A model generated the notes under the pieces. It ran no database searches. It was not told where the DNA came from and saw nothing but the letters and a program-made list of their open reading frames with translations. From Bacteroidota bacterium (GTDB taxonomy: Bacteria > Bacteroidota > Bacteroidia > Chitinophagales > Chitinophagaceae), in assembly GCA_013287475.1 (NCBI GenBank), contig JABDDT010000035.1, positions 1 through 32,046 of the forward strand: 32,046 nucleotides of DNA, given 5' to 3'. Positions 3,735-31,749 of the stretch are shown here, piece by piece. How positions within the stretch are numbered: position 1 is the first letter of the stretch; every line of letters starts with the position of its first letter. Both the position numbers and the translations under genes were made by a program.

Positions 3735-3776
3735 GGTTATGGGTTATGGGTTATGGGTTATGGGTTATAGGCTTTA
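3735..3776 (+). repeat. Heptad tandem repeat array A (GGTTATG x4, GGTTATA, GGCTTTA)
   Basis: Six 7-bp units in perfect phase: four GGTTATG, one GGTTATA and one GGCTTTA. The array starts 12 bp after the stop of the 49-aa gene and ends 16 bp before the ATG of the first SDR gene. The last unit is the same word that makes up the array next to scpB (31701-31749), which links the two sequence subtypes. Confidence 0.9.
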
Positions 3777-3792
3777 GATAATCACGAAAAAT

Positions 3793-4566
3793 ATGAGTTG
3801 GGCATTAGTAGCCGGAGGCAGCAAGGGCATTGGTTTCAGTATCGCAGAGGCATTAGCGAAGCGGAAATATAATTTATTGTTGGTTGCAAGAAATCATGAT
3901 GATCTGATACTTGCTAAAAAGACGCTTGAAAAGACTTATCCTGTAGAAGTTGAAACATTAACCTGCGATTTATCACTCACAGAATCAACAATAAAAATTC
4001 ACGATTGGTGCAACGATAAAGGATGCAAAGTAAATATTCTTTGCAATGTTGCCGGCTCGGGTGGGTCAGGCGACTTTCCTGAATTGCCAGTGAATGAAGT
4101 GAGCACAATGCTCAGGACTAATCTTGAATCGACCATTGCCCTTAGTACGATATTAATTCCTCAGTTAAAAACAAACGCTCCTTCTTATATCCTGAATGTC
4201 GGAAGTCTCGCGGGATTTGCACCCATTCTCATTAAGAGTGTTTATGCTTCTGCAAAATCTGCTGTACATTCTTTTAGCTATTCGCTCAGATATATTTTAA
4301 AACCAGATAAAATTTCTGTCAGTTGTCTCTGTCCCGGTCCGGTTTTTACAAAACCTTCTATTGTAAACGAAACGATGAAACAGATGGGGTGGCTGGGGAA
4401 ACATATGGCTCTGGAACCCGGACTGGTCGGGGAATTAGCCATTCGGGGCTTGTTAAGAAGGAAAATGATTATTGTACCCGGCAAGCTGGCAAGATTGATT
4501 TCTTATATACTCAGGATATTACCGGATCAATTTATAGCATACCTGATTTATTCTTTCAGAAAGTAA
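3793..4566 (+). CDS. SDR-family NAD(P)-dependent oxidoreductase, cytoplasmic
   Basis: Short-chain dehydrogenase/reductase of classical type, 257 aa, with the Rossmann fold starting at residue 4. The dinucleotide motif is GGSKGIG (residues 8-14), followed by the NVAG element and the catalytic Ser138, Tyr151 and Lys155 (YASAK). LCPGPVFTKP after strand 6 is typical of the 3-ketoacyl/long-chain reductase branch. No signal peptide is present, so it should act in the cytoplasm; substrate unknown. The gene downstream is a close tandem paralog sharing long blocks such as VAGGSKGIG, LSVSCLCPGPVFTKP-like and EPG-VGE-AI segments, with a 26-bp gap between them. Recent duplication is likely. Confidence 0.85.
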   Translation: MSWALVAGGSKGIGFSIAEALAKRKYNLLLVARNHDDLILAKKTLEKTYPVEVETLTCDLSLTESTIKIHDWCNDKGCKVNILCNVAGSGGSGDFPELPVNEVSTMLRTNLESTIALSTILIPQLKTNAPSYILNVGSLAGFAPILIKSVYASAKSAVHSFSYSLRYILKPDKISVSCLCPGPVFTKPSIVNETMKQMGWLGKHMALEPGLVGELAIRGLLRRKMIIVPGKLARLISYILRILPDQFIAYLIYSFRK

Positions 4567-4592
4567 AATGACCCTTCAATAAAACAACAGTT

Positions 4593-5474
4593 ATGAAGCA
4601 TATAATCATCAGTATTTTTATTTGCTTCAATTGCATTGTATGTTTTGCACAGTTGAAAGCAGACAACGAAAACCAAAGCGACTCATCAAAACCTTATGCA
4701 CTTGTTGCAGGAGGAAGCAAAGGAATAGGTTATGGCATTGCAGAAGCCCTGGCAAAAAGAGGATATAATCTGATCCTGATAGCAAGACACCTGGATACAC
4801 TGCAGTTTGTCAAAAATAAATTGCAAACAAAGTATCCAATCCATGTGGAAATATTAGCCATTGATTTGAGCTTTGACAGCTCGGCATATGTGATAGCAAA
4901 ATGGTGTACCGACAGAAAAATTCACTTAAAAGTTTTATGCAATGTTGCAGGCTTAGGTGGGGCGAATGATTACTTATCATTTCCACTTGATTCGTTACGC
5001 TACATGGTCAGTCTGAATATTGAATCCTGCATGGCGCTTAGTCTCACATTGTTGCCACTATTAGAGAAAAATACTCCTTCTTATATATTGAATGTAGCAA
5101 GCATGGCCGGTTTTGCGCCTATCCCGATTAAGAATATATACTCAGCCACCAAATCGGCTGTGGTTTTTTTCAGTTACTCGTTAAGGTATCAACTGGAAGA
5201 TAAACATATAAGTGTGAGTTGTCTTTGTCCTGGTCCTGTTTTTACAAAACCCGAGATCGTTAAAGATACCAAGGCCAAGCTCGGTTGGTTTGGAATGAAG
5301 ATGGCGCTTGATCCGGGTACAGTGGGAGAATACGCAATAAAAAAAACATTCAAAAAGAAATTAATTATAGTACCCGGCACTCTGGCTAAAATCAGTTCTT
5401 CGATTATCAGGTTTCTTCCCCGCAGATGGGTTGTCTCATTGTATGGAAAAGCCGGCAAGAAAAAGAGTAAATAA
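4593..5474 (+). CDS. SDR-family oxidoreductase paralog carrying a signal peptide
   Basis: Tandem paralog of the preceding SDR gene, 293 aa. It keeps the full SDR set: GGSKGIG in the cofactor site, NVAG, and Ser170, Tyr183 and Lys187 (YSATK). It differs by a 35-residue N-terminal addition that reads as a Sec signal peptide (MKHIIISIFICFNCIVCFAQ) plus a polar linker. The ATG at 4593 is the only start that includes it; without it the protein would start close to the position of its neighbour. Export of a nucleotide-cofactor enzyme is odd, because free NAD(P)H is not expected in the periplasm. The extension might instead act as an N-terminal membrane anchor with the enzyme facing the cytoplasm. 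A terminator overlaps the end of the gene. Confidence 0.82.
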   Translation: MKHIIISIFICFNCIVCFAQLKADNENQSDSSKPYALVAGGSKGIGYGIAEALAKRGYNLILIARHLDTLQFVKNKLQTKYPIHVEILAIDLSFDSSAYVIAKWCTDRKIHLKVLCNVAGLGGANDYLSFPLDSLRYMVSLNIESCMALSLTLLPLLEKNTPSYILNVASMAGFAPIPIKNIYSATKSAVVFFSYSLRYQLEDKHISVSCLCPGPVFTKPEIVKDTKAKLGWFGMKMALDPGTVGEYAIKKTFKKKLIIVPGTLAKISSSIIRFLPRRWVVSLYGKAGKKKSK

Positions 5475-5500
5475 CGTAAGTAACAGATACCGGCTTTTTT
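5447..5500 (+). terminator. Terminator overlapping the end of the second SDR gene
   Basis: AAAAGCCGG (5447-5455, inside the last codons) pairs with CCGGCTTTT (5490-5498), and the T run continues to 5500. The loop is long (34 nt). The symmetric A/T arms mean it could also work on the - strand for the convergent gene that ends at 5549. Confidence 0.55.
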
Positions 5501-5548
5501 GTTTCTTGTAGAAACTAATCCCCAATAAAAAGCTACTCAAAACTTATC

Positions 5549-6586
5549 TTACTGTTTCAGGGCGCTATTTTTTACATGTAATTCTTCAATGACAATGATA
5601 AGGATTGACAGCAGGGGAACAGCCAGGATAATACCCATTATGCCGGACAAAGTGCCCATAATTAACTGGCTTAACAACGTCAGGGCCGGAGGAATATCGA
5701 TCATCTTCTTTTGAAGCAAGGGTGTTACAATACTAGCCACAATAGTTTGACAGGCGATATATATCAGTGCAACTACAACAGCCGTTTTTGTGCTGATGGT
5801 AAAAGCAAGCAATACGCCGGGTATCATGGCGATCACAGGACCGAAATTCGGAATGATCTCAAGTACTCCGGTTATAAGTCCTAATACGGTGGTGCCCGGT
5901 AATCCAACAATATTTAAACTCACTGCAATCAAAATACTAATAAGAATCATAGATACCAGCATGCTTTTAAGCCAGCCTTTCAGTGCAACACGAATCCGGT
6001 TTAAAATGATACTTCCTACGGATTTTTTCTGTTCCGGTAAAAGTAAAATTATTCCATTCTGATACAGAGAAGGATCTGCAGTAAAAAAAACCCCGAGAAA
6101 TAAAATTATATACAAATCACCTAAAACTCCAAAGCTGGTACTAAAAAAACTAGTGGCTGTATCCATTAATTTTTGTGAATTATTTCCTGAAGTATATTCA
6201 AGTATCTTTTCTCCAACTGGTGTTTTTGACATTTTAGCCTTGACCGTACTAATCGTCTGGGGCAGCGTATTGTTTAGTTCTGTTACCTGATTCTGGATCC
6301 TCGCTCCAATGAACCAGGTCATGACCGCAAACAGAATAGTCGTTCCACCAATGGAAATAATCAAAGAAATCCTACGGCTTAGTTTTGTTTTTCGATTAAT
6401 CATTGCAGCCAGGCCGTGAAAATAAACCGCAATCAAAACTCCGGCAAGCGCCATTAGTAACACATTAAATGCTACCCGCACGATCAATATGATAACCAGT
6501 GTCAGACATACGATAGCGGTGGTCTGCCATACTTTAACCGTATAGGAAAGTTCTTTTTTGATTGAATTATCGGGTTCCTTATCCAT
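5549..6586 (-). CDS. AI-2E family (PerM/UPF0118) membrane protein
   Basis: Polytopic inner-membrane protein of 345 aa with about eight hydrophobic segments. Its layout fits the AI-2E/PerM family: two N-terminal helices, a soluble segment of about 100 residues, then a helical block with LKGWLKSMLVSM, LPGTTVLGLITGVLEIIPNFGPVIAMIPG and SQLIMGTLSGIMGIILAVPL. The IPNFGP and PL motifs are typical. Family members have been proposed as autoinducer-2 exporters or as Na+/H+ antiporters. Nothing here decides the substrate, and the AI-2 name should be treated as a family label only. The gene is convergent with the SDR pair. A perfect 8-bp inverted repeat lies 13 bp before its ATG. Confidence 0.85.
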   Translation of the reverse strand: MDKEPDNSIKKELSYTVKVWQTTAIVCLTLVIILIVRVAFNVLLMALAGVLIAVYFHGLAAMINRKTKLSRRISLIISIGGTTILFAVMTWFIGARIQNQVTELNNTLPQTISTVKAKMSKTPVGEKILEYTSGNNSQKLMDTATSFFSTSFGVLGDLYIILFLGVFFTADPSLYQNGIILLLPEQKKSVGSIILNRIRVALKGWLKSMLVSMILISILIAVSLNIVGLPGTTVLGLITGVLEIIPNFGPVIAMIPGVLLAFTISTKTAVVVALIYIACQTIVASIVTPLLQKKMIDIPPALTLLSQLIMGTLSGIMGIILAVPLLSILIIVIEELHVKNSALKQ

Positions 6587-6598
6587 AAATCAAATTTT

Positions 6599-6617
6599 CG
6601 ATATTTTTCAAATATCG
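6599..6617 (-). promoter_or_regulatory. Inverted repeat just before the AI-2E gene
   Basis: CGATATTT-TTC-AAATATCG is a perfect 8-bp dyad 12 bp upstream of the ATG at 6586. It lacks a following T run on the - strand, so it does not look like a terminator for the upstream gene. It could be an operator or a hairpin in the 5' leader. Confidence 0.35.
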
Positions 6618-6653
6618 TATTCCCCGAAGTTATATTTATTTCGTAATTGTTTT

Positions 6654-9533
6654 TTATGGCCTGTTTCTACCGCCACCATCAAAACCGCCACCTTCACGCC
6701 TGCCCCCCGGAGGAAAAAATCCCGGCATCCTGTTTTGTTTTGGTTCTGCAAAATTATTCAGATTATAGGTGAAGGTCAGCATCGCATACCGGGTAAGCGT
6801 ATTGGTCCTGGTATAGGATTCCAGGTTTGAAGTCACCGATTTACTGACTGAAGTATTCTGGTTCAGCAGATCAAAAACACTCAGTCTTATTTCACCATTC
6901 TTCTTTTTAAAAACCTGTTTGGCGATGCTCGGACTTAGCAGGGGTACGCTTGCATTATATGCTGCAGCATTATTGTTCGTATATGTGTAATCAAAATTTG
7001 CTGCAATCAGCCATCCGTTGTTTGTATATGCTGTAAATTCCGCAGAGAAGGCCTGAGAAAATGCATTGAGATTATTTTGCGCATTTGATTTTTGTGGCGA
7101 GGCACCAGATCTCTTGTTGATGCTATATTTGGAAACAGTACTAAAGTTCATATCAAAGTTCTTCCTGATATTCGTAGTCCAGGAAATCGTTTCAGACAAT
7201 CCCGTGTTTTTCGAATATACATGCGCGTAATTATTTTCTGCGGCATCTATGGAATCCTGTGCAAGAAGGTTCTGACTCTGAGCATATGTTATACTGGTAA
7301 TAAAGTTCAGGTTGGATTTAGGTTTATTTAAGGGGATACCATAATTAAAATATCCAGAGATATTATAAGTACCGTTCAGGTTTACGTAAGTGGTTTGCTG
7401 ACCCCCCTTTGAATTATAATAAACAGCCGATTGTATATCATTTACGATCGTACTTGCATTGATTGTTGCAAAGACCACGTGCTGCGATCCGGGTTCGAAC
7501 GATGAATATAGCATGCGCAGACTATGTGTGAACTGCGGTTTCAGGTCGGGATTACCTACCTGGTAATTAATCTGATCAGTCGTTGTAATTAATGGCTGCA
7601 GCTGCGTTACAGAAGGAGTACCCGTTCTTCCTGAATAGTTAAGACGAAAATGTTTTGTTTTCGAAATGGCATATTGGAAATTGACTGTGGGTGTAAGATT
7701 CACATAGTTCTGAACCACACTGATATCTTTGGTGGTGTTCAGACTATTGAATCCGGTGAATTGTATTCCGGATCCTACTGAAAAATTAAACTTGGGATTC
7801 TGAACCCTGTAATTCAGTGTGAACCTGTTGGAATGAGATACGAATTTATATGAGTTACTGAACAGGCTGTCAAATTGTTCATAGCCTTTCAATGAATCGA
7901 CAAAATCATATGTATTGTTGATGGATACATTATGCTGATAGTTAAAATTATAATTGAATTCCAGGATCTGATTCTTACCCACAGGTTCTGTATAAGACAA
8001 TGTGGGACTGATCGTATATGAATGGAGGGTATCAGTTATATATTGATTAAGTGTATCAACTTTACCCAGATTATAAAAATCATTTATTGCATAATTATAT
8101 CCATATCCTTCATTCACATTCGCGGTACCATTGATGTCAAGAGAGATAGTCCGGTATTTCTTTGCGAATCTGTGCCTGAACTGCAAATTGGATCCATTGA
8201 TATTAAAACCATTATTATAATTGGAGGAATTCCCTATTGAAGTATTTACAGGCGACCCGTGATTGTCGACGGTAGTGGAGTTTGAACTCGCGCTGGGATC
8301 ACTTCTCTGAAAGGTCAGGTTAGGGCGGAATACAAGTGAATTGTTGCTATCGTATTTCTGCTCCAGATTCAAATATACACGGTGTGACTGCAACCTTTGA
8401 ATGCTTGACTGATATCCGGAAGTTGTATTGGAACTGTCCTGACCTGATTGGCCCGTGATGAGTTTTATGGTACTGTCCTGCTGACTGACAGCTATGTGCT
8501 GACTGTTGAAAAAATAACTTCCGTAGAAATCAGTTTTAGGGCCGAATGAATTCCTGTAGTTTGCGCCACCAGCCCAGACGGTCGTAACACCAGAAGAATT
8601 CGCAGAGGTGCTGGCGCCTCCTCCGCCTCCTCCTCTTCCACCTGAAATAATGTCCGGTGTAAAATTTTGTTTGTTGATATCATTTGCCTGTCCCAGCAAT
8701 GATATCTGCTGGTCATTATCAAACCGGTGCATATTTATGCTTTCATCATAATTCTGATCTGTACCAATACCGCCTACCAGTTTCACAAAATATCCCTGAC
8801 GCTTATCTTTTTTAGTAATGATATTAATGGTCTTTACCCTGTTGCCATCGTCGAAGCCACTGAATTTGCTCTGATCACTCAGGTCATCAAAAACCTGAAT
8901 TTTATCTATGATGTCCGGAGGAAGGTTCCTGGTTGCCAGTTTTGGATCGTCATTGAAAAAGCGTTTACCATTTACCAGCACGCGACTTACTGTTTCCCCC
9001 TGTGCGGTAATTACTCCGTTTTTATCAACCTGTATACCTGGCATTTTTTTTAAGAGGTCTTCCGCCAGTGCATTGGGTTTCGTCGTAAAACTGCCCGCAT
9101 TATATTCTACCGTGTCTTTATGAACAGCCATCGGCGGCCTTTCAATGGTTACTTCTTCCAGCATTTCCGTGGACTTACGCATATTCAGAATACCAAGATC
9201 TATATCCTTATTTGTACTGCTGATCGTAATATCTCTCCGGAGATGACGATATCCTTCAAAGCTGATGAGCAGATGATATGATCCGGGATGAAGGTTTTTT
9301 ACAATGAAATAACCCTTTTCGTTGGTGGTCATAAATTGAATGTTTACGGAATCCGGACCAATGGGTTTGACTGTAACCGTCGCTTCACTCATATCCTGCT
9401 TACCCGTTGTATCTACGATGGTACCTTTTACTGATCCCGTTATCTTGTTTTTTGTATTTGCCGGATTATTAACCTGTGAAAAGACAGAAATTCCTGTGAG
9501 GAATAAAATAGAAAAAAATAAAAGAATACGCAT
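6654..9533 (-). CDS. Outer-membrane beta-barrel protein with carboxypeptidase-regulatory and plug domains
   Basis: A 959-aa outer-membrane protein. Residues 1-20 are a signal peptide (MRILLFFSILFLTGISVFSQ). Residues about 33-115 are a carboxypeptidase-regulatory-like beta sandwich (GTIVDTTGKQDMSEATVTVKP, YFIVKNLHPGSYHLLIS). Residues about 120-245 form a TonB-receptor-type plug (LLKKMPGIQVDKNGVITAQGE, VLVNGKRFFNDDP). The remainder is a long barrel with alternating aromatic strands, of the outer-membrane-beta-barrel family common in Bacteroidota. A loop near residue 300 contains a run of glycines, and the C terminus is also Gly/Arg-rich and not an ordinary barrel-ending strand. Unlike SusC it has no SusD partner. 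Role: probably uptake or surface display; cargo unknown. It is divergent from the FtsX-type permease gene across a 306-bp spacer. Confidence 0.82.
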   Translation of the reverse strand: MRILLFFSILFLTGISVFSQVNNPANTKNKITGSVKGTIVDTTGKQDMSEATVTVKPIGPDSVNIQFMTTNEKGYFIVKNLHPGSYHLLISFEGYRHLRRDITISSTNKDIDLGILNMRKSTEMLEEVTIERPPMAVHKDTVEYNAGSFTTKPNALAEDLLKKMPGIQVDKNGVITAQGETVSRVLVNGKRFFNDDPKLATRNLPPDIIDKIQVFDDLSDQSKFSGFDDGNRVKTINIITKKDKRQGYFVKLVGGIGTDQNYDESINMHRFDNDQQISLLGQANDINKQNFTPDIISGGRGGGGGGASTSANSSGVTTVWAGGANYRNSFGPKTDFYGSYFFNSQHIAVSQQDSTIKLITGQSGQDSSNTTSGYQSSIQRLQSHRVYLNLEQKYDSNNSLVFRPNLTFQRSDPSASSNSTTVDNHGSPVNTSIGNSSNYNNGFNINGSNLQFRHRFAKKYRTISLDINGTANVNEGYGYNYAINDFYNLGKVDTLNQYITDTLHSYTISPTLSYTEPVGKNQILEFNYNFNYQHNVSINNTYDFVDSLKGYEQFDSLFSNSYKFVSHSNRFTLNYRVQNPKFNFSVGSGIQFTGFNSLNTTKDISVVQNYVNLTPTVNFQYAISKTKHFRLNYSGRTGTPSVTQLQPLITTTDQINYQVGNPDLKPQFTHSLRMLYSSFEPGSQHVVFATINASTIVNDIQSAVYYNSKGGQQTTYVNLNGTYNISGYFNYGIPLNKPKSNLNFITSITYAQSQNLLAQDSIDAAENNYAHVYSKNTGLSETISWTTNIRKNFDMNFSTVSKYSINKRSGASPQKSNAQNNLNAFSQAFSAEFTAYTNNGWLIAANFDYTYTNNNAAAYNASVPLLSPSIAKQVFKKKNGEIRLSVFDLLNQNTSVSKSVTSNLESYTRTNTLTRYAMLTFTYNLNNFAEPKQNRMPGFFPPGGRREGGGFDGGGRNRP

Positions 9534-12275: not shown

Positions 12276-12289
12276 GACCGATGACCGAT
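12276..12289 (-). repeat. Minimal heptad repeat B (two units)
   Basis: Two adjacent GACCGAT units (GGTCATC type on the - strand), 7 bp after the permease stop codon and 11 bp before the end of the convergent GtrA gene. This is the shortest member of the heptad family in the window and could be chance if seen alone. Confidence 0.5.
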
Positions 12290-19898: not shown

Positions 19899-20087
19899 CC
19901 CATATTTTTAATGTATTAAATATTCACGCTGATCCATTATTTTCCTTCTCTGAACAATATTTTTTCGACCAGAATATTTTATTAATTATAAATATCCTCT
20001 CCCGTATTTGTTAATTTTAAATAAAATAAGGGTGAAAAATTAAGTTAGTTACTGAAACAGTATCCCGCTTCCGGGGGGACTGTTAAA

Positions 20088-20171
20088 GGTTGACGGTTGG
20101 CGGTTGGCAGTTGGTGGTTGATCGATCACGGATGACGGTTGGCGGTTGACGGTTGACGGATGACCGATGAC
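20088..20171 (+). repeat. Heptad tandem repeat array C (12 units)
   Basis: Exactly twelve 7-bp units in unbroken phase over 84 bp. The commonest words are GGTTGAC (3), GGTTGGC (3) and GGATGAC (2); others include GGTTGAT and CGATGAC. The array lies between the ydjM-like stop (19 bp away) and the susC leader. The whole 382-bp spacer 19809-20190 otherwise contains the susC leader RNA and an AT-rich stretch with no clear promoter match. Confidence 0.92.
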
Positions 20172-20190
20172 CGTTTAAAAATAACTGAGA

Positions 20191-21201
20191 TTAATTTCCG
20201 CGGATGCGATGAATGAATGCTCTTACTGAATTCCAATTCCAGTTTGCAAATCTGCCGCGCTGTATAATGAGATAGTTCGCGCCGGGCTCATTCAGATAAT
20301 AATGAAAAACAAAATCTGCATCATTGTTTTCCCAACCCATTATCTGACCGAATCGAAGATCGTTGAATACGATGCCGTGATTAGAGATTCCGGCAGTATA
20401 ATATCCTCTTGAAAAGCGGATGAGCTTGCGCAGATCCCGGCGACCATTCCAGGGTTTCAATAAAGAGTCATTCCGCGGAAAATATTTGAATTCAATGGGT
20501 TCATTTTTATCAAATACAGAACAGTATCCGATTTGATATCCCGCGTCTGTCTCAGCAACCACATACCATAACCAGTTATTAAAGGGGGTAGGTGTTGTCA
20601 AATACCGGTTATAATGAATTCCCTTCTGAATAAGTGCGTACCTGGTTTTATTGTCGATCCTGATTTTATTTGAAAAGCAATATAACAAATAGAGAGAGCA
20701 AAAAATCAGTCCCAATTTCGCGATCCTTCTTCTTTTATTACTGTTACGGTTCAGAATCAGTAAACAGATTGCAGCAATTCCAGGCCATATGGAAAAAAAA
20801 GGATCAGCAACAAAAATCACATTAAATGATACTCTGTAGTGACTGAAAGGTTCAAACCATCCGATACCATATGCATTAAAAGCATCTATGAAAATATGGG
20901 AAAATATTTCAGTCCCCATGAAAACCAGCCATGTTTTAACAGGAATTTCTTCGGCGCTATGGCGCTTTCTGAAAAAAATAGCGAGTAAAATGATTATCAG
21001 GAAAGCAAATAAAAAAGAATGTGTAAATCCACGGTGAGCCAATAAATCATCCGGCGTGTTCATCCAGAATGAAGTAATAAAATCTATGTCAGGCAAACTG
21101 GCTGCGATAGCTCCGTATAGCATCGCTTTTTTGCCAATTTTTTTCCCCAGAAACAGATCCCCGATGCAGGCGCCGATAGCGATATGCGTTAAACTGTCCA
21201 C
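20191..21201 (-). CDS. YdjM-like membrane-bound metal-dependent hydrolase
   Basis: Inner-membrane protein of 336 aa of the YdjM/LexA-binding-hydrolase family. It shows the family's metal-site motifs: DSLTHIAIGACIGDL at residues 2-16, SLPDID near residue 35, and AHRGFTHSFLF near 55, which together supply the His and Asp ligands. Four hydrophobic segments follow up to about residue 175. The C-terminal 150 or so residues are soluble (DNKTRYALIQKGIHYNRYLTTPTPFNNWLWYVVAETDAGY) and resemble the extra domain seen in the longer Bacteroidota members. The biochemical activity of this family is not well established. It is alone on its strand: a heptad array and a terminator lie upstream, and another heptad array lies downstream. 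Confidence 0.82.
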   Translation of the reverse strand: MDSLTHIAIGACIGDLFLGKKIGKKAMLYGAIAASLPDIDFITSFWMNTPDDLLAHRGFTHSFLFAFLIIILLAIFFRKRHSAEEIPVKTWLVFMGTEIFSHIFIDAFNAYGIGWFEPFSHYRVSFNVIFVADPFFSIWPGIAAICLLILNRNSNKRRRIAKLGLIFCSLYLLYCFSNKIRIDNKTRYALIQKGIHYNRYLTTPTPFNNWLWYVVAETDAGYQIGYCSVFDKNEPIEFKYFPRNDSLLKPWNGRRDLRKLIRFSRGYYTAGISNHGIVFNDLRFGQIMGWENNDADFVFHYYLNEPGANYLIIQRGRFANWNWNSVRAFIHRIRGN

Positions 21202-21244: not shown

Positions 21245-21317
21245 CCAACGATCGAAGCTTTTGTTATCATAACCAGACGTGTAAAATAATAAAAAATTTT
21301 GAATGAAGCATCGTTGG
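21245..21317. repeat. Widely spaced inverted repeat upstream of the ydjM-like gene
   Basis: CCAACGAT (21245-21252) and ATCGTTGG (21310-21317) are perfect 8-bp inverted copies 57 bp apart in the spacer before the ATG at 21201. The right copy runs into the first unit of heptad array D. The function is not known; it could form the base of a leader hairpin. Confidence 0.35.
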
Positions 21318-21392
21318 TTATGGGATATGAGATATGGGATATGGGATATGAGATATGAGATATGAGATATGAGATATGAGATATGAGATATT
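21316..21392 (+). repeat. Heptad tandem repeat array D (11 units)
   Basis: Eleven 7-bp units in phase over 77 bp: one GGTTATG, then a mixture of GGATATG and AGATATG, ending in AGATATT. The run of identical AGATATG units at the right end suggests recent expansion. It creates a spurious repetitive reading frame on the - strand. It lies about 115 bp upstream of the ydjM-like start. Confidence 0.95.
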
Positions 21393-21444
21393 ATAAATGT
21401 TATTAGTATTCGATTAAAAAATTTATTAAAACTAACTCCTATCA

Positions 21445-21472
21445 CATAGCCTATAACCTATAACCCATAACC
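21445..21472 (-). repeat. Heptad tandem repeat array E (4 units)
   Basis: On the - strand the units read GGTTATG, GGTTATA, GGTTATA and GGCTATG. It is a short array of the same subtype as array A but in the opposite orientation, only 52 bp from array D. It is followed by the terminator of the adjacent lipoprotein gene. Confidence 0.85.
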
Positions 21473-21475
21473 CCA

Positions 21476-21506
21476 TAAAAAAACCCCTCCGCGCTCTGAA
21501 GGGGTT
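21476..21506 (-). terminator. Intrinsic terminator of the 336-aa lipoprotein gene
   Basis: On the - strand AACCCCT (21506-21500) pairs with AGGGGTT (21488-21482) and is followed by a run of T (A run on + at 21476-21483). It lies 20 bp past the stop codon at 21527. Confidence 0.85.
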
Positions 21507-21526
21507 CTGAAATAAAAAAGTACGGA

Positions 21527-22537
21527 TCAATAAGGCCGGATAATTGTAAATGTTTTACCATTAACACCTGTCCATACTAACTTATAATAGTATGTACCTG
21601 AACCTGGACAACCAGTTGGATTGCCACTGGAATCAAGTCCATATGTTATTACAGAAGTTCCAATATCTGTAATCACTGTATTCTGACCACTGGTTAATCT
21701 GAAATCACAATCCTGACGAATTACTTTAGGTTCACTTATCAAACTTTGGAATGATTCTCCCAGACGGTTCAATCCCCATTCGGCAATATCATCATTTGTA
21801 CCATCAGAATAAGTTCCGGTTGTTGTGATAACGATACCATTGTCATATGTGAATACTCTTTGTTTCGAAACATTCCAGGCTCTTGTAGTGCCATTGTCAA
21901 AATCAATTGACATAGTTCCCTTAATTGTATGGGTAATGGTTAGAAGTGTTGCCAGATTTTTTAATAGACCGCCGGTTACGTTTGTATATGTTTTGTTACC
22001 ATTGATGACAATACTTTTATTATCCCTTAAACGGGTAATTTTCAATTCATCAATAACAATGTTAGCTGTAGCTCCGACATCCTTCCAATGCTGTCCTAAT
22101 GGCACTGTAATAATCACTTTACCATTTCGCGTTCTGTTTCCCCAGCAATTCGTGCCGTCATATACAATAGTAATAACACGCTGGTTGTTTGATGTGTCAT
22201 AGGTAATTGTCGCATCACAAATTAACTGATGAACATTCACCAGTGAAGAGGTACCCATAACAGCATCCGTGCTGTTAACTTCCGTATTACCACTTATTGA
22301 TGCCGTGCTGCTGTTGTCGCCTGAAAAAACAGACTGACCGTTCAGAGCGGTATTTGCATCATCAGTGATGATATCCGACTCAGTGGAAACCTGTTGCTGA
22401 TCATCTCCTGTTGTAGTAAGGTTTGCTGACGAATTATCCTGTGAAGAAGCTGAATTGCTTTTCTGACAGGAATAAATACTTATACAGGATAGCAGGCAAA
22501 AAGCGATTGCCATCCGGCGAATGAGGTTTGCTTTCAT
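21527..22537 (-). CDS. Lipoprotein of unknown function
   Basis: A 336-aa lipoprotein with lipobox IYSC and lipidated Cys24. Residues 25-90 are a low-complexity Ser/Thr/Asp/Gln-rich linker, which would hold the folded part away from the membrane. The folded part (about 95-336) is rich in beta strands: ITYDTSNNQRVITIVYDGTNC, WGNRTRNGKVIITVPLGQHW, IVINGNKTYTNVTGG, GTMSIDFDNGTTRAWNVSKQRVFTYD. It contains four cysteines that could form two disulfides. I recognise the general type (hypothetical lipoproteins common in Bacteroidota) but no named family. It is monocistronic: its own terminator follows, and a 145-bp spacer separates it from the histidine kinase gene upstream. Confidence 0.7.
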   Translation of the reverse strand: MKANLIRRMAIAFCLLSCISIYSCQKSNSASSQDNSSANLTTTGDDQQQVSTESDIITDDANTALNGQSVFSGDNSSTASISGNTEVNSTDAVMGTSSLVNVHQLICDATITYDTSNNQRVITIVYDGTNCWGNRTRNGKVIITVPLGQHWKDVGATANIVIDELKITRLRDNKSIVINGNKTYTNVTGGLLKNLATLLTITHTIKGTMSIDFDNGTTRAWNVSKQRVFTYDNGIVITTTGTYSDGTNDDIAEWGLNRLGESFQSLISEPKVIRQDCDFRLTSGQNTVITDIGTSVITYGLDSSGNPTGCPGSGTYYYKLVWTGVNGKTFTIIRPY

Positions 22538-24910: not shown

Positions 24911-25315
24911 ATGAATCACCTGAAAACAGCTAATGCATTCGTTTTCAACGCCGAAATAGACGCGAATTACCTTAATAGCCTCTACGGCGATGACTATAAC
25001 TACATGCAGGAAGTATTCAATACTGTCCTGGATGAATATGTATCATTAACCGATAATATTGAATTCAGTCATTCTTCCGGCAACCTTGCAGCATTAAAAG
25101 CATCTGTTCATAAAATCAAACCAGTATTTGGATTCGTGGGACTCACCTCCGTTCAACAGCAATGCCAGCAATTTGAACAAATCTGCAGCACGGTCAGTTC
25201 ACCCGATCAACTCTCAGGTGAATTTGAAGCATTAAAAAACAAAATATTTCAGAGCAAACTACTTATAGAAGAAGAAAAGAAAAAATTGGAACTGTTTAAT
25301 AGCAATTGCTCATGA
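24911..25315 (+). CDS. HPt domain phosphotransfer protein
   Basis: A 134-aa stand-alone histidine phosphotransfer protein. It is all-helical in appearance and carries the HPt signature ALKASVHKIKPVFGFVGL, with His67 as the phospho-acceptor. FEQICS and a charged C-terminal helix complete the four-helix bundle. It is cytoplasmic. It overlaps the LytTR regulator gene by 4 bp (ATGA), and the hybrid kinase is divergent 113 bp upstream. This context makes it the shuttle between the kinase's receiver and the LytTR receiver. The identification rests on one short motif and on the strong context. Confidence 0.8.
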   Translation: MNHLKTANAFVFNAEIDANYLNSLYGDDYNYMQEVFNTVLDEYVSLTDNIEFSHSSGNLAALKASVHKIKPVFGFVGLTSVQQQCQQFEQICSTVSSPDQLSGEFEALKNKIFQSKLLIEEEKKKLELFNSNCS

Positions 25316-26004
25316 GTCTCAGCTGTATAATTGTGGAAGATCTGCAGGTAGCCGCGAATTACCTTAAGAACTGCTGTGAAAAAAGCGGACAGGTTGAAGT
25401 CAGGGGGCATTTTAGCAATGTCACTGATGCGCTTTCATTTCTTAACAGTAATACGGTGGATCTGATATTTCTCGACGTGGAAATGCCCGGCGCCAATGGT
25501 TTTGAATTGCTAGATCAAATAGCATTTTCGCCGAAAGTTATTCTTACAACCGCCAAATCGGAATATGCTTACAATGCATTTCAGTATAATGTTTCTGATT
25601 ATCTGATGAAACCTTTTACTTACCAGCGATTCATGGAGGCTTTACAGAAAATTCAACCTTCTAAAGAAACTATTTCTACCAATAGCGCTTCAGACCATAT
25701 TTATATCAAAACAGATGGCAAATTGATAAGGCTGAACAACGATGCTATTTTATATATTGAAAGTATGGGCGACTATGTAAAGTTTGTTACTATGGATGGC
25801 AAGAAATATATTACCCATAATACCATTAAAAATCTCGAGGAAAAAGTAAGTAAACAGCACTTCCTCAAAGTGCATCGTTCCTATATCGTTAACCTCCATA
25901 AAATCGACGATATGCGGGAAAATCTTTTATTCATCAAGGGAAATGAAATTCCTGTCAGCAAGGCCAATAAAGCTGATGTTTTCAGAAGGTTGAATATTGT
26001 GTAA
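25312..26004 (+). CDS. LytTR-family response regulator
   Basis: Response regulator of 230 aa. I use the ATG at 25312, which overlaps the HPt stop as ATGA; a TTG at 25306 would add two residues only. The receiver (residues 1-118) has the acidic pair in IIVED, phospho-acceptor Asp55 in LIFLDVEMPGANG, the Thr of ILTTAKSEYAYNAF and Lys of YLMKPF. The C-terminal LytTR DNA-binding domain (about 130-228) shows DHIYIKTDGKLIRLNNDAILYIE, GDYVKF, the FLKVHRSYIVNL hallmark and PVSKANK. Such regulators usually bind pairs of direct repeats about 21 bp apart. Its target genes are unknown. Its stop codon is the first triplet of heptad array F. Confidence 0.93.
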   Translation: MSLSCIIVEDLQVAANYLKNCCEKSGQVEVRGHFSNVTDALSFLNSNTVDLIFLDVEMPGANGFELLDQIAFSPKVILTTAKSEYAYNAFQYNVSDYLMKPFTYQRFMEALQKIQPSKETISTNSASDHIYIKTDGKLIRLNNDAILYIESMGDYVKFVTMDGKKYITHNTIKNLEEKVSKQHFLKVHRSYIVNLHKIDDMRENLLFIKGNEIPVSKANKADVFRRLNIV

Positions 26005-26035
26005 GCCTAAAGCTTAAAGCCCAAAGCCTAAAGCC
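26002..26035 (-). repeat. Heptad tandem repeat array F (GGCTTTA type)
   Basis: A 6-bp TAAGCC followed by four 7-bp units (TAAAGCT, TAAAGCC, CAAAGCC, TAAAGCC), read on the - strand as GGCTTTA-type words. The stop codon of the LytTR gene (26002-26004) is the start of the array. It shares the unit with array I near scpB. Confidence 0.88.
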
Positions 26036-26070
26036 TAAAACTACTTTTTGGAGATCGATCAATGATCAAA

Positions 26071-26117
26071 GGTCAACGGTTATCGGTCAACGGTTATCGG
26101 TTATCGGCTATCGGTCC
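26071..26117 (+). repeat. Heptad tandem repeat array G (GGTTATC/GGTCAAC)
   Basis: Six full units in phase plus a partial one: GGTCAAC and GGTTATC alternate twice, then GGTTATC and GGCTATC. The array runs into the 3' end of the convergent M1 peptidase gene; the TAG stop and the last two codons (Asp-Arg) are made of repeat sequence. The 103-bp spacer thus carries a different heptad array at each gene end. Confidence 0.92.
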
Positions 26118-28084
26118 TTCATAATCCATTCGTTGTTTTTTCTATCAGCATCCGGCAATTCTTTATTGGGATCCAGGATTACTTTATCAATCTTTCCTGT
26201 GGACGCATATTTGAGTGTCCATACTCCTCCTCTTTGCCATATTTCCACGGGCAATTGAACAATGGCTGAATCGCCATTTGTCTGAATGATTTTCAAACTT
26301 ACCGGCATGATCATTTTACCTCTGTTCTCAATGGTTATCAGGATACCTTTTGACGAATCATTGTCTACATATTTTACATCAGACAATGCCTGGTCCAGCG
26401 TCCAGGTAGTAAAAAACCATTCTTTCCAGAACCAGTTCAAATCTTCACCTGCAGTGCTATTCATGCAATGAAAGAAGTCGTTGGGTGTGGGGTGCTTAAA
26501 TGCCCAGTACTCGGTGTATTTCCTGAATGCATAATCAAAACGGTCTTTTCCTAAAATCACATTGCGCAGTAAAATCAATCCAAAGGCAGTTTTACCATAG
26601 TATTGTCCATAGTCGGTCAAGGCCATTGCTTCCGGTACCATCATAAGCGGGTCTTTATACCTCCGCAAGGTTGCCGGATCAAGCATACTAAAGATTCTTC
26701 GGCTTGTCATCGGATCTTTGGCAAACTCGCCATTGTTGAAAATAAGTGAAGCCTGATAATTTATAAATGTGTTGAATCCCTCATCCTGCCACATATATTT
26801 TCTTTCATTGGAACCGACAATCATTGGAAACCAGTTATGTCCGATTTCATGTGTAACGAGATTCCATAGAAATGCCTTTTGTGCGCTGTATTCATTGAAA
26901 ATAATTCCCGGATATTCCATACCTGTTACTGATCCTCCTACATTTACCGCTGTATTCCAGGGATATTCAAAATAATTTTTTGAATATATTTCTATACTGT
27001 TTTTTAAGTATTCCGTTCCCCGGGAATACCCGTTATCGCCAGCGCTTTCCTCCGGATAAGCGGACATGGCAATTGCCTTGCGGCCTGAAGGAAGGTTAAT
27101 CCTGGCGGCGTCCCACACAAACGCTTTTGAAGCTGTCCATGCAACATCGCGGCTATTCTTCATGATAAAATGCCAGGTAAGGTTTCCTTTGGCAAGGGGC
27201 CGGACAGAAGGCTTTCCAATTTCATCCTGACTGATTATTGAAACAGTTTTATCAGATATTGCTGCAGATGAAATTCTTTTTATTTCTCCGGTAGTTAATA
27301 CTTCGGAAGCATTTTGCAAATCGCCGGAACCGAATACAATCATTTCCGCAGGTACAGTAATATAATAGTCGAAATTTCCATATTCACAATAGAATTCACC
27401 CAGTCCCATATAAGGCAAAGTGTTCCATCCTTCCACATCATCATATACACACATGCGCGGATACCATTGTGCAATTTCATATATCTCTCCTTTTTTTGCA
27501 TGCATTCTTCCCATGCGGTCAGCACCGTGACTCGGAATCGCAAAATTGTAATTTACTCTGACGGATATCTTATCGCCTTTTGGTAAAAGCGGATTATGTA
27601 AACGAATCTGCATTCTGGTATCAGATATCACCGGCTGAACATTGTACGACTTACCCGCATAAGTGACGGATACAAGACCAATATGATAGCCTCCCAGGTT
27701 AAATTTTCTTACATCAAACCTGTCACCGGAAACAGGCGTAGCAGCTGCACCTCTTGATGCAGGATCAAAAAGATTCTGATCTAACTGGAGCCATAAATAG
27801 TCCAGTTTATCAGGGCTGTTATTGGTATAAGAAATAACTACATCGCCTGTAATACTGGTATCTTTTTCACTTAAAGTAGCATGTATCAGATAGCTGGCGT
27901 TGTTTTGCCAATACAGAGGACCCGGCATTCCACTTGCTGAGCGAAAGGCATTTACAGCATCCGGGTTAAAATTTTGCAGGAAAAAATCCCGCTTGTTATA
28001 AAGCAAACTATCCTTTTGTTCATTTTGACCAAATAAAATATTCAAACTCATCAAAAGAAAACTCAGTAATAATCCTTTTTTCAT
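26108..28084 (-). CDS. M1-family zinc metallopeptidase, exported
   Basis: A 658-aa aminopeptidase-type enzyme. Residues 1-19 are a signal peptide ([20 protein letters not shown]). A beta-rich N-terminal domain occupies about residues 55-300. The catalytic thermolysin-like domain follows: VTGMEYPG stands where aminopeptidases have GAMEN; the zinc site is His412-Glu413-x-x-His416 (HEIGHNWFP) with Glu435 18 residues later (DEGFNTF); and the tyrosine of YYGKTAFG is a candidate transition-state residue. The change from GAMEN to GMEYP is usual in this Bacteroidota branch as I recall it and may alter N-terminal recognition. No M1 C-terminal HEAT-like domain is present; a beta domain ends the protein. 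It is probably periplasmic or surface-exposed and used for peptide scavenging. Its last codons and stop are embedded in heptad array G. Confidence 0.9.
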
Positions 28085-28368: not shown

Positions 28369-28421
28369 TATTGTTGAAGCGCGCGAATGATCTGATCCGA
28401 TGAAACCCGAAAATCCTAACC

Positions 28422-28501
28422 GAGAAAAACCGAACTGAATCCTAAGAAAACCGAAAGAATCCGAACTGAGAAAAACCGAACCGAATCCTAAGAAAACCGA
28501 A
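28422..28501 (+). repeat. Direct repeat of 34 nt, two copies, inside the RNA candidate
   Basis: Copies at 28422-28455 and 28468-28501 start with GAGAAAAACCGAAC and end with CCTAAGAAAACCGAA. They differ at a single base (T at 28436, C at 28482) and are spaced 46 bp start to start. The CCGAA word occurs seven times between about 28406 and 28501. Confidence 0.9.
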
Positions 28502-28688
28502 TAACTGATCAGACCATTAGAAGATATTAAACCTATGAAAACGAATCCAATACCTTAGAAAAAACGTTGACGATCCCTGAACCCTTATCCTTTTTGAAAA
28601 CCGAACGAAATCCAATGTCGAAAAACTCTGAAATCTGTACCTTTTCTTGACGGAAAACTAAAATTTGATGACTCTTAAACAGATTTAG

Positions 28689-28717: not shown

Positions 28718-30323
28718 ATTTATTTACCTCAACTATACAAGCTACAATACGGTTACTATTTTCGTCCCCTTTAAAATGAATATTGCCTTTTGAAGAAAGA
28801 TCAGCCTGGATGAACCGGGTAGACGATCCAAGAGCAGAACGGAGTCTTTCTCCATAATCTTCTGATTTATTCAAGCTGATTTTTTCATTAAGCGAACTCC
28901 AGTTTAAACTGTCTTTACTTACTACCACACCCATTATATCTTTAGTACCAATACTATCCGGTTCCATACTTTTATCTTTCGGGAATAAACGGTATCCTGC
29001 TATTCCACAAAAAGGAGAATATTTAGTTTTTGTGGGATCGTCTGAACGCGGATAAGGAAACAATGTGTAGCTGCTTCCATCTGTTTCTTTTCCGAATACA
29101 TAAATAAAACATTCGGATTCATTCCGAATTTCCATTTTAAACCTGGTGCCTGCTTTTATAGCTTCTGTCGTTTCGAATACATAATCAGAAGTTTTTTTCA
29201 ATTGAATATAATTGCCGGAAACAGTTTTCTTTCCATTAAAACTAACCTGTACCAAGCCTACTTCGCATTCAAATGGTCTGTTTGCTGCAGCCCCTACTGC
29301 AGGCATTGCTTCAAGTCCGTATGCTTCTCTTACAAAGTATTTGAAAACATTGTAATTGACCCATGCAAAACCATTGTTGCCCCATTGCGGCCCCCAGCTG
29401 TTCATAATCAGAAAAGCTCCTCCGTATTTCGCGTCATCATATCCGACAACACATTGGGCATGACCTCCGAATCCCATCATAGTTTTATCATCCTGATCGG
29501 GAATCCAGACATCTTTGCCCATCATAGGCTGCATGTAGCTACCACCCACCATCATTCCAATTACGACGGGAGCACCCTGTGAAAGATTTTCTTTTATTGC
29601 ACGTAAATCAATCTGGTCTGTCCGGTCACCTATAGTCAGTCTGTTTGAACCACGCATGCGAAATTTTCTGGCCTGATCCAATAATTGTTCATCGGGCTGG
29701 CGTTTACAATCCTGATCATTATAAGGAAATGCATCGTAAGGGACAGAACCCCGCTGGCTCATGAATTCCATGGCGTGGTTGATATAAGATCCGTCACATC
29801 CGTTCAGTCCGATCTGATTATATAAAAAAGCAGGACTGAATTTTAATGCATTTGGATCCGAGCCTGTTCTGACAGATTCCAAAATGGTTCGTGCACCGTA
29901 GGCGCTGCTCCAGGCCACACAACTTCCCTGTTTTCCCTGATCGCCCACTGCAGGTGCATATTTTTGCAGGTTGGCTGATTCAGGCAGCGGATTTTTATTA
30001 TCATCATCAGCAAGAGCTTCATATACTTTGGCCTTATCAAAAACACGCGGATCGAGAATACCCCCTGTTGCCAGTTGCTGAGCTTGCTGTGAGACTGAAG
30101 CAATATTACATCCGCCTCCGCGGCCTAATATAAAATATCCTGCAACTGCGAGTCCTATGATCAGAAGAAGACTTTTGGGTCCGCGTATAAGACCAAATAT
30201 TAGCGGAAGTAAACCAAAGAGTCCGCCACCACCGGATCCGCCACCTCCCCTGTCACCACCACCTTCAAAACCTCCGCCACTGTCGTCTGATTCAGCCGGA
30301 TCGTCTGTCATTCTTATAGGCAT
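28716..30323 (-). CDS. Membrane-anchored papain-like (C1) cysteine peptidase with DUF4384-like tail
   Basis: A 535-aa protein from the ATG at 30323 (MPIRMTDDPAESD); ATGs at 30365 and 30311 are alternatives. There is no signal peptide. A Gly-rich acidic stretch (about residues 12-35) leads to one or two hydrophobic helices (LFGLLPLIFGLIRGPKSLLLIIGLAVAGYFIL), an internal anchor. The C1 peptidase domain (about 110-350) has the oxyanion Gln129, catalytic Cys135 (GSCVAWS), His288 (GGHAQCVVGYDD) and Asn308 (MNSWGPQWG), so it should be active. There is no obvious pro-peptide. The C-terminal part (about 365-470) resembles DUF4384 (KMEIRNESECFIYVFGKETDGSSYTLFPYP), a beta domain found with caspase-like and surface proteins. 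Orientation and substrate are unknown. It is 82 bp downstream of lysA. Confidence 0.85.
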   Translation of the reverse strand: MPIRMTDDPAESDDSGGGFEGGGDRGGGGSGGGGLFGLLPLIFGLIRGPKSLLLIIGLAVAGYFILGRGGGCNIASVSQQAQQLATGGILDPRVFDKAKVYEALADDDNKNPLPESANLQKYAPAVGDQGKQGSCVAWSSAYGARTILESVRTGSDPNALKFSPAFLYNQIGLNGCDGSYINHAMEFMSQRGSVPYDAFPYNDQDCKRQPDEQLLDQARKFRMRGSNRLTIGDRTDQIDLRAIKENLSQGAPVVIGMMVGGSYMQPMMGKDVWIPDQDDKTMMGFGGHAQCVVGYDDAKYGGAFLIMNSWGPQWGNNGFAWVNYNVFKYFVREAYGLEAMPAVGAAANRPFECEVGLVQVSFNGKKTVSGNYIQLKKTSDYVFETTEAIKAGTRFKMEIRNESECFIYVFGKETDGSSYTLFPYPRSDDPTKTKYSPFCGIAGYRLFPKDKSMEPDSIGTKDIMGVVVSKDSLNWSSLNEKISLNKSEDYGERLRSALGSSTRFIQADLSSKGNIHFKGDENSNRIVACIVEVNK

Positions 30324-30405
30324 GTAAAATATTTTAGGATGAAGAATTGTGGAATTTAATTCCAAAACACCCTTAAAATAAATAAAGCACAGAAGATGAA
30401 AAAAT

Positions 30406-31620
30406 TTAAATCACTTCAAGCTGGTTGCGGAGAAGATCATCAAACTGATCTCTGCGGCGGATCAAATGAGCCCTGCCTTCCAGTACTATGACTTCAGCCG
30501 GTTTAAAACGTGAATTGAAGTTAGATGACATTTCAAACCCGTAAGCGCCCGCATTACGGAATACCAACAAGTCTCCTTCGCGGACCTGGTTCAGCGGCCG
30601 GTCCCATGCAAATGTGTCTGTTTCACAAATATTTCCTACAACAGAATAATTTTTTAACGGGCCATCAGGATTACTGATATTCTCGATATGATGATAAGCA
30701 TCATAAAACATGGGACGGATAAGGTGATTGAAACCGCTGTTTACACTGACAAAATCAGCCGTTGCGGTTTCTTTCATCACATTCACTTTGGCAATAAAAT
30801 TTCCGGCTGCACTTACCAGGAATTTTCCTGGTTCAAACCAGACCTGCAGGTTCCTGCCTTTTTTATATGGGTGACTGGCGAATGCCCTGCTTACTTTTTC
30901 AGCAAGTAAAAGAATATCTGTTTCCTGTTCACCTGCCATGCTTGCCACTTTAAATCCACCACCGAGGTCAATGAATTCCAGGTTTTCAAAATGTGGTGCT
31001 ATGTCGAATAACACTTCTATTCCTTTGAGAAAAACATCCACATCTTTTATTTCACTGCCTGTATGAATATGCAGGTCACTGATCCGCAGCTTATATTTAT
31101 TTACCAGTTTAAGAATCTGTTCAATCTGTTCAACAGGAATTCCGAATTTACTTTTATCGTGTCCGGTGGAAATCTTTATATTTCCACCTGCCAGAATATT
31201 CGGGCGCAGCCGGATGCCTACCGGGTATGAGTAACCGAAAGCATTGCCGAATTTTTCCAGATTGGAGAGGCTGTCAATATTTATATATACACCAAGCTCT
31301 TTCGCGTCTCTGATTTCATTAAAATCGATACCATTGGATGTATAAAGAATCCGGGAAGGCGGAAATCCGGCGTGGAGTGCAAGCCTCACTTCGTTAATGG
31401 AACTGCAGTCTACATTGGCACCCAGGTTCTTTATATACCGAAGTATGTTTACATTGGTGAGTGCTTTGCAGGCGTAGAAAAAAACAGTATTGGAATTACT
31501 GAAAGCATCTTGCAGCTTCCTGTATTGTTCTTTAATTTTCTCTGCATGATATACATAAACAGGTGTCCCATATTCTTCTGCTATAGTAATAAGATCGGCA
31601 TGGGAAAGGGAGTTCATCAT
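30406..31620 (-). CDS. lysA: Diaminopimelate decarboxylase
   Basis: PLP-dependent enzyme that converts meso-diaminopimelate to lysine and CO2, the last step of lysine synthesis, in the cytoplasm. I start it at the ATG at 31620 (a second ATG follows directly at 31617); the frame to 31641 adds an unlikely leader. It has 404 aa, normal for the family. The fold-III barrel carries the PLP lysine Lys52 in FYACKALTN, then CSSINEVRLAL, HIHTGSEI, the phosphate-binding GGGFKV, EPGKFLVSAAG, and the decarboxylase-specific CETDTFA (active-site Cys from the partner subunit) and AGAYGFEMSSNFN. These favour diaminopimelate over arginine or ornithine decarboxylase, although carboxynorspermidine decarboxylase should be excluded by alignment. 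scpB is 120 bp upstream on the same strand. Confidence 0.9.
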   Translation of the reverse strand: MMNSLSHADLITIAEEYGTPVYVYHAEKIKEQYRKLQDAFSNSNTVFFYACKALTNVNILRYIKNLGANVDCSSINEVRLALHAGFPPSRILYTSNGIDFNEIRDAKELGVYINIDSLSNLEKFGNAFGYSYPVGIRLRPNILAGGNIKISTGHDKSKFGIPVEQIEQILKLVNKYKLRISDLHIHTGSEIKDVDVFLKGIEVLFDIAPHFENLEFIDLGGGFKVASMAGEQETDILLLAEKVSRAFASHPYKKGRNLQVWFEPGKFLVSAAGNFIAKVNVMKETATADFVSVNSGFNHLIRPMFYDAYHHIENISNPDGPLKNYSVVGNICETDTFAWDRPLNQVREGDLLVFRNAGAYGFEMSSNFNSRFKPAEVIVLEGRAHLIRRRDQFDDLLRNQLEVI

Positions 31621-31648
31621 GGTTGCGAATATAACAATCAAGCATGAA

Positions 31649-31672
31649 AGTGTGAGGGTGTGAGAGTGTGGA
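31649..31672. repeat. Octamer repeat H
   Basis: Three near-identical 8-bp units (AGTGTGAG, GGTGTGAG, AGTGTGGA) in the spacer between scpB and lysA. It has a period of 8, unlike the 7-bp arrays nearby, so it may be unrelated. Confidence 0.6.
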
Positions 31673-31700
31673 AATTATATTTACATTTTCCTAAATCAAT

Positions 31701-31749
31701 AGCTTTAAGCTTTGGGCCTTAGGCTTTAGGCCTTAGGCTTTAAGCTTTA
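31701..31749 (+). repeat. Heptad tandem repeat array I (GGCTTTA type, 7 units)
   Basis: Seven 7-bp units in phase over 49 bp: AGCTTTA, AGCTTTG, then GGCCTTA and GGCTTTA alternating, then AGCTTTA. The scpB stop codon (31742-31740) and its last codons lie inside the sixth and seventh units. Same word family as array F. Confidence 0.92.

Follow-up and report, generated by a model that had tools for sequence, protein, structure and literature searches.

Heptanucleotide tandem repeats lie in the spacers of cyanobacterial genomes as STRR sequences, and the REP, BIME and REPIN elements are palindromic, multicopy, extragenic and inversely paired, with a common palindrome of 20-40 bp, and go with RAYT transposases. 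Here we describe tandem arrays of 7-bp and 8-bp units in the genome of a Bacteroidota bacterium of the Chitinophagaceae (GCA_013287475.1, labeled G000; 3.16 Mb in 137 contigs, 74% complete), which we met in a stretch of 32,046 bp, hereafter the window (contig JABDDT010000035.1, or C35:1-32046). They are like STRR sequences in being heptanucleotide tandem repeats in spacers. They share palindromic form, many extragenic copies and inverse pairing with the REP-type elements but are built from heptads of many units in tandem, and a search of this genome gave no Y1 transposase.

The nearest counterpart is the set of heptamer arrays of Xanthomonas and Nostoc (PMC4692102). Two Xanthomonas genomes carry 186 and 183 GGGAATC arrays, and Nostoc PCC 7120 carries GGGGA(C/T)T; the arrays have period 7 and mixed units, are chiefly intergenic, seldom lie between divergent genes, and are found at most 50 bp from a stop on the coding strand or 5' of a start on the non-coding strand. 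In Xanthomonas some overlap stop codons, and 70 and 75 inverted convergent pairs were counted. Length and sequence vary greatly across species, and the arrays have been discussed as formers of G-quadruplexes; in Xac, the starts and ends of transcripts fall more often on repeats capable of forming quadruplexes than on control repeats (PMC4692102). The arrays described here are the same in having period 7 with heterogeneous units (with octamers in addition), in being intergenic and rare between divergent open reading frames (0.52 per kb), in lying near stops on one strand and near starts on the other, and in forming inverted convergent pairs. They differ in that the single G-rich quadruplex unit is replaced by 40 linked heptamers plus octamers, with a quadruplex motif in 12 of 248 arrays, and in that most sites are common to both Xanthomonas species, whereas 3 of 10 sites here are shared with a congener.

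Direct repeats of TAACTGA have been reported from Beggiatoaceae, cyanobacteria and five Bacteroidetes, in some of the latter as long arrays adjoined by other heptamer repeats, and in the BOGUAY genome they lie mostly directly 5' of start codons (PMC4679880). These too are heptamer arrays in intergenic DNA, but TAACTGA is a single unit, start-proximal in BOGUAY, whereas here many units lie mainly at stop codons and form inverted pairs. An earlier, sequence-only reading of the window knew of no described counterpart in Bacteroidota, which the TAACTGA arrays of the five Bacteroidetes show to be wrong. For oriented multi-unit heptamer arrays in Chitinophagaceae, no paper was found in searches of an open-access library, most subscription journals lying outside it. 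As quoted in both sources, Mrazek 2007 found heptamers to be the commonest category of long repeats in bacterial genomes (PMC4679880, PMC4692102) and suggested that polymerase contact length may favour 7 nt (PMC4679880).

Our preferred reading, to which we give a probability of about one half, is that the arrays belong to one oriented, multi-unit heptamer and octamer family of the Xanthomonas and Nostoc kind, made by slippage, mirrored into hairpins and held at gene ends. To count them, one detector for all periods from 3 to 30 was run over 1,181,567 bp (27 of the 137 contigs, some of them partly, 37% of the assembly), a non-random sample picked by contig number. Period 7 accounts for 177 arrays and period 8 for 65, followed by period 14 with five, period 16 with one, and at most four for any other period. 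A third-order Markov shuffle at genome scale, run once, gave a single array, of period 3, and 200 kb of E. coli MG1655 gave three arrays, none of period 7 or 8. The excess of period 7 proposed from the window is thus real in the genome counts (177 against at most five outside period 8), but period 8 is part of the same phenomenon. That the arrays reflect chance, low complexity or faulty assembly might be suspected of an incomplete metagenome-assembled genome (MAG) in 137 contigs; the absence of periods 7 and 8 from the shuffles and from E. coli, and the recurrence of the same periods in independent genomes, some of them named isolates, make this explanation next to untenable. Arrays are unevenly distributed: non-divergent spacers of at least 60 bp carry one in 14 of 17 cases on contig C16, in 0 of 14 on C10 and in 1 of 24 on C4, and the contig with dnaA (C22) is array-dense. 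Regional density varies up to about 40-fold within the genome (C16, C6 and C2 against C10, C4 and C1). In the congener G071, the two densest stretches, L159 and L141, hold 13 arrays each, and L159 aligns to C16, the densest contig of this genome.

Counted irrespective of strand and rotation, the consensus units of the 182 heptamer arrays (period 7 or 14) come to 40 different sequences, and a network of single substitutions joins all 40, whereas in 300 random sets of equal size and composition the largest group had a mean of 7.2 and a maximum of 21 units. The proposal that the differing units form one evolving family is therefore upheld. Frequent heptamers are AAAGCCT, AACGCTT, AAAGCTT, AATAATT, AGATATG, AACCGTC and AACAATT, and frequent octamers are AAGAGTAT, ACTCCCAT and ACACTCTC. 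Some arrays switch in phase from one unit to another (by eye), and nearer units are more alike than remote ones, as slippage predicts (similarity 0.831 at lag 1 and 0.79 at lags 4-7 for period 7; 0.934 at lag 1 and 0.83 at lag 5 for period 8). Local spread to adjacent spacers found no significant support, with the same cluster in 75 of 119 cases against 68.5 when shuffled (P = 0.08). The clusters are single-linkage, so that "linked units" may be non-identical.

Placement was assessed with a gene caller of our own, which in a 50-kb E. coli check recovered 39 of the 44 stops in the annotation and placed 29 of the 44 starts exactly, making start-edge figures softer than stop-edge figures. Among the 248 arrays of periods 7, 8, 14 and 16, 153 touch no called gene, 72 overlap one partially and 23 lie at least half inside, leaving 225 less than half within called genes. 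The number of arrays per kb of spacer is 3.67 between convergent, 2.01 between tandem and 0.52 between divergent genes, and arrays cross 77 gene 3' ends and nine 5' ends. For 126 of the 174 stop codons facing array-bearing spacers, the closest array edge lies between -20 and +9 nt; these are all the stops of 94 tandem and 40 convergent array spacers, and single-array convergent spacers enter twice. In the spacers that we viewed, the stop codon is frequently itself part of the repeat. All of this agrees with the intergenic position near gene 3' ends suggested by the window.

What had been overlooked in the earlier description is that the arrays are oriented and often paired. Arrays occur in 149 spacers, 67 of which have at least two; facing arrays are mostly of similar unit and inverted, with a median arm complementarity of 25, compared to 5 for arms from different spacers and 6 in direct orientation, and with values of at least 15 in 47 of 67. 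Of 84 close array pairs, 68 belong to the same linked cluster, and these are inverted in 52 cases, direct in 6 and undecided in 10. Orientation is also fixed relative to the gene: read outward, 88 of 91 arrays (one stop-adjacent array per spacer) show the majority orientation of their unit, where random orientation gives 60.6 with a maximum of 71 in 2000 trials. The same holds for spacers with a single array (33 of 35, against 24.9 at random, maximum 33) and when both arms of convergent pairs are counted (109 of 115). Start-adjacent arrays have the sense orientation reversed in 30 cases and the same in 6, and links between units keep the strand in 43 cases and flip it in 11 (observed 0.80, random 0.49, maximum 0.70). 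The figures 88/91 and 109/115 take units seen at least twice, and the ratios 30:6 and 43:11 also take units seen once at a stop. Among 58 edge arrays of G071, orientation agrees with this genome in 26 and disagrees in 5, the remaining 27 having units outside the set.

Fixed period and orientation would also be expected if the heptad arrays were binding sites, read at gene boundaries by a DNA- or RNA-binding protein that recognizes repeats. We consider this unlikely, as AAGCCTA, GGTTATG, TTAATTG and the 8-bp GAGTATAA have no common motif by eye and the units differ by species. Other rules for the orientation were tried and rejected. Purine richness fits 76 of 105 arrays, less well than the unit rule itself, and G over C is a partial predictor only. 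Stop codons in all three frames, as a purpose, occur in 66 of 98 sense and 38 of 98 antisense readings; a stop codon within the unit is found in sense only in 43, in antisense only in 7, in both in 38 and in neither in 17 (n = 105), a real bias that is not general. Quadruplexes as a common cause fail on the small number of arrays with the motif.

Fixed orientation, matched in G071, and inverted pairs such as those of BIMEs could likewise be the work of a dedicated copying or mobile system (REP/RAYT-like, a miniature inverted-repeat transposable element (MITE), or a reverse transcriptase with an RNA template) that writes the arrays in one direction. Across 40 paired elements the loops are AT-rich (GC 0.28) and show no relation to one another, and their comparison gave no common core beyond 21 short matches (best E 0.002), which argues against a mobile core; the common internal sequence between terminal inverted repeats that marks a MITE is accordingly missing from these 40 loops. 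Promoters within loops were also considered and rejected (2 motifs in 2951 bp). No match to Y1_Tnp or RVT_1 was found in this genome or in G071 (58% complete), nor is there a single common palindrome as in REP, BIME and REPIN elements, and at 74% completeness the absence of Y1_Tnp here is not final. G180, an array-rich genome from another family (98% complete), has no RVT_1 and two Y1_Tnp matches above the cut-off (40 and 36 bits), and G205, which carries GTTGGCA arrays, has both. Among eight congeners lacking the octamer of this genome, seven have Y1_Tnp and four have RVT_1. Given also that many units and two periods coexist, a copying system, which had been listed among the possible causes, is unsupported, and we regard it as quite improbable.

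The period and, in part, the layout recur among relatives while the unit changes. In 400 kb of G071, which is of the same genus, there are 54 arrays of period 7, 22 of period 8, six of period 6 and at most two of any other, with partly other units. Forty further genomes (649 kb) have period 7 as the commonest, with 10 arrays in 6 genomes, and no period 8; 80 named loci (939 kb) have 22 arrays of period 7, 19 of period 8, five each of periods 9 and 21 and at most four of others, with units that vary by species and some inverted pairs. Pooling these two samples (1.59 Mb), arrays cross 11 gene 3' ends and 4 gene 5' ends; purine-rich first arms are seen in 7 of the 9 spacers with at least two arrays and purine-rich last arms in 1 of the 9, and of the single arrays nearer a stop, 11 of 15 are rich in purines. 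Period-9 arrays are found at L055 710-882 and 3792-3825, which face each other inverted, and at L043 12334-12394; from one species to another the favoured period may move between 7, 8 and 9. Twenty genomes from other families (362 kb, one stretch being chosen at a known match) have five arrays of period 7 and two of period 8. G180, selected for its match, carries 11 heptamer arrays in a 15-kb stretch chosen at known matches (L223, G180:C3:1-15000), several with a unit of its own, AGTGCTG, and some inverted and facing.

Exact patterns of the units found here are rare elsewhere: the class A pattern occurs in 1 of 59 family members, the octamer pattern in 1 of 32 congeners, and the AATTRAC and GTTGRC patterns in 11 and 16 of 295 phylum members. 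The reversed-pattern control is uninformative for GTTGRC, whose reverse is nearly the same repeat, and the reversed octamer control found matches in this genome as well (15 and 13). The family member G001 has no class A arrays and 28 matches to the reversed control pattern, which are probably a heptamer family of its own. GGATATG arrays resembling class A are present on three contigs of a viral collection (L224 8414-8467, L225 1885-1950 and L226 4449-4482), which could be host sequence; the octamer pattern had no match in viral contigs.

Of 48 gene pairs adjacent both here and in G071, the spacer has arrays in both genomes in 3, here only in 7, in G071 only in 1 and in neither in 37 (Fisher P = 0.025). 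At C16:16620 both genomes have an array pair with different units, the place being kept and the unit replaced, and at C23:11781 the G071 spacer seemingly holds a degenerate hairpin missed by the detector (by eye). In the scpB-lysA spacer, the array of the window corresponds to two units in the close relative L021; among 69 loci with both genes, hairpins of other units are seen by eye in L034, L057, L069 and L080, and ordinary-looking terminators stand in a number of other relatives. The spacer of L034 (5808-6001) holds a near-perfect long hairpin with arms of about 50 bp of degenerate octamers, and looks by eye like a recent inverted copy.

Predicted RNA folding becomes stronger with the number of arrays (mean z of -3.22 with at least two arrays, -1.85 with one and -0.79 with none, 45 spacers each), and canonical intrinsic terminators (a GC hairpin followed by a T run) are found in 0 of 36 convergent spacers of 50-600 bp with arrays, compared to 7 of 45 without (P = 0.015). 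These results raise the possibility that the arrays are selected transcript-end devices, either bidirectional terminators or hairpins protecting the 3' end of the mRNA, in which fold and place are selected and the unit drifts. The anchoring at stops, the excess of inverted over direct pairs, the kept place at C16:16620 and the scpB-lysA hairpins of differing units are all in keeping with this. Published work reports stop-proximal hairpin clusters as terminators in 13 genomes, with U trails not necessary (PMC8355165), and the Xac transcript boundaries enriched at quadruplex-capable repeats point the same way (PMC4692102). This explanation is to be taken seriously but we think it doubtful: many arrays have no partner, terminators show no association with arrays in tandem spacers, 46 of the 94 tandem array spacers leave less than 40 nt after the last array, hence little room for a new promoter, and one pair in the window (21316..21473) lies beyond a normal-looking terminator.

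Under the preferred reading of slippage and mirroring, slippage during replication, favouring steps of 7-8 nt, would create and re-amplify the arrays, and substitutions alter the unit while the phase is retained. Arrays reach up to the upstream gene and often run slightly into its end, and at that point coding sequence would halt their growth. The second, inverted copy in the same spacer would be made most simply by snap-back template switching, and the rarity of arrays in divergent promoter spacers would reflect their removal. The outcome, as computed folds suggest, would be a transcript-boundary hairpin past the stop codon or between cistrons, which would be tolerated and might at some convergent sites replace an intrinsic terminator; a function for the modelled hairpin is possible.

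Several results weigh against this reading. Slippage alone predicts neither inverted partners nor a fixed orientation of the units. Among tandem spacers, those with arrays hold canonical terminators no less often (6 of 85) than those without (18 of 217, P = 0.82). Units in the arms show no mirrored order beyond unit type (median z 0.04), mismatches of G.U type show no significant excess over those of A.C type (32:25 in tandem and 6:9 in convergent spacers), a search of the 82 single-array spacers at a score of 12 left 56 with no hidden partner, and promoter-like motifs follow arrays with no raised frequency (7 of 35, against 44 of 206). In the pooled relatives, tandem spacers are densest (0.37 arrays per kb, compared to 0.22 convergent and 0.11 divergent), and single arrays nearer a start are purine-rich in 7 of 10, contrary to the purine rule. 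Of the 10 arrays here, only 3 are matched by an array detected in the orthologous spacer of G071. The lack of wobble bias and of mirrored order leaves selection for RNA pairing unsupported and, together with the many unpaired arrays, is the reason why we prefer slippage and inverted copying bounded by coding sequence over selected transcript-end devices.

Within the window, Tandem Repeats Finder (TRF) reports period-7 rows at 3735-3768, 20088-20175, 21319-21391, 21446-21472, 26003-26039, 26077-26115 and 31702-31749, plus a period-14 row at 26071-26116, and our detector at its standard threshold finds seven arrays, every one of period 7. Sixty third-order Markov shuffles of the window gave no period-7 array, and an array of another period in 6 of 60. 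Seven of the eight period-7 sites listed by the sequence-only reading are thus confirmed by both programs, the eighth (12276-12289) consisting of two units only, and the list was incomplete, with two weak arrays found at a lower threshold. The features are as follows.

2998..3022, plus strand: weak period-7 array of AGTAAAA, spanning the 3' end of the GH116 gene 427-3018(+); lower threshold.
3729..3777, plus strand: period-7 array of GGTTATG, 4.9 copies, passing in phase into TATAGGCTTTAG, in the tandem spacer 3447-3792 with the start of an SDR gene 15 nt further on; detector and TRF.
12276..12289, plus strand: two exact units, GACCGATGACCGAT (GACCGAT), between the convergent stops 12269 and 12300; below array length.
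20082..20173, minus strand: period-7 array of GGTTGAC/GGTTGGC/GGATGAC type (as read on the plus strand), 17 nt past the stop of the YdjM-like gene 20191-21201(-); detector and TRF.
21316..21391, plus strand: period-7 array of GGTTATG/GGATATG/GAGATAT; seen from gene 21527-22537(-), it is the far arm of an inverted pair.
21446..21473, minus strand: period-7 array whose minus strand reads GGTTATG; near arm of the pair with 21316..21391.
21477..21507, minus strand: ordinary intrinsic-terminator-like hairpin with a T run, separating the arrays from the stop of gene 21527-22537(-); from sequence and fold.
26003..26039, plus strand: period-7 array of AAGCCTA, starting within the stop codon of the LytTR response regulator gene 25306-26004(+), in a convergent spacer.
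26057..26114, minus strand: period-7 array of GGTCAAC/GGTTATC (as read on the plus strand), overlapping the stop of the M1 peptidase gene 26108-28084(-).
31650..31670, no strand assigned: weak period-8 array of GTGTGAGG; the decarboxylase (LysA-like) gene 30406-31641(-) starts 9 nt away.
31701..31749, minus strand: period-7 array of AAAGCTT/AAAGCCT/AAGGCCT, overlapping the ScpB stop (31740, minus strand).

The arms 21316..21391 and 21446..21473 pair with each other in the predicted RNA fold; their position past the terminator-like hairpin at 21477..21507 counts against transcript-end devices. The array at 26057..26114 and the facing AAGCCTA array are non-complementary by eye. Two arrays depart from the usual orientation: 3729-3777 is an exception to the start-edge rule, and 20082-20173 opposes the usual direction but, lying 17 nt from its stop, is outside the orientation counts. 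A 46-bp repeat in two copies with an inner period of 21 (28412-28501), of a different kind from the heptads, lies in the 631-bp gap separating the M1 and C1 peptidase genes. The genes of the window are ordinary for the phylum (GH116, SDR, a TonB-dependent receptor with a SusD-like protein and a LytTR regulator, and also the M1 and C1 peptidases, the decarboxylase and ScpB), and the top matches of the decarboxylase are in Chitinophagaceae (86% to UBA5175 and 84% to a Bacteroidetes MAG). Rfam gave no match in the window.

The best-studied heptamer case has been framed through G-quadruplexes, and the prevalence of heptamers is without a settled reason. A genome with the layout and strand rule of Xanthomonas and Nostoc but mostly non-quadruplex units argues that something else sets period, place and orientation. 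More tentatively, heptad and octad arrays may be a general oriented gene-boundary element of at least three phyla, in which period, place and polarity are kept while the sequence turns over, and whose common property would be a hairpin of interchangeable units at transcript ends and not a quadruplex. This genome offers material for testing directly what step length slippage favours, and which of the two, stop codons or transcript ends, fixes how the arrays are oriented.

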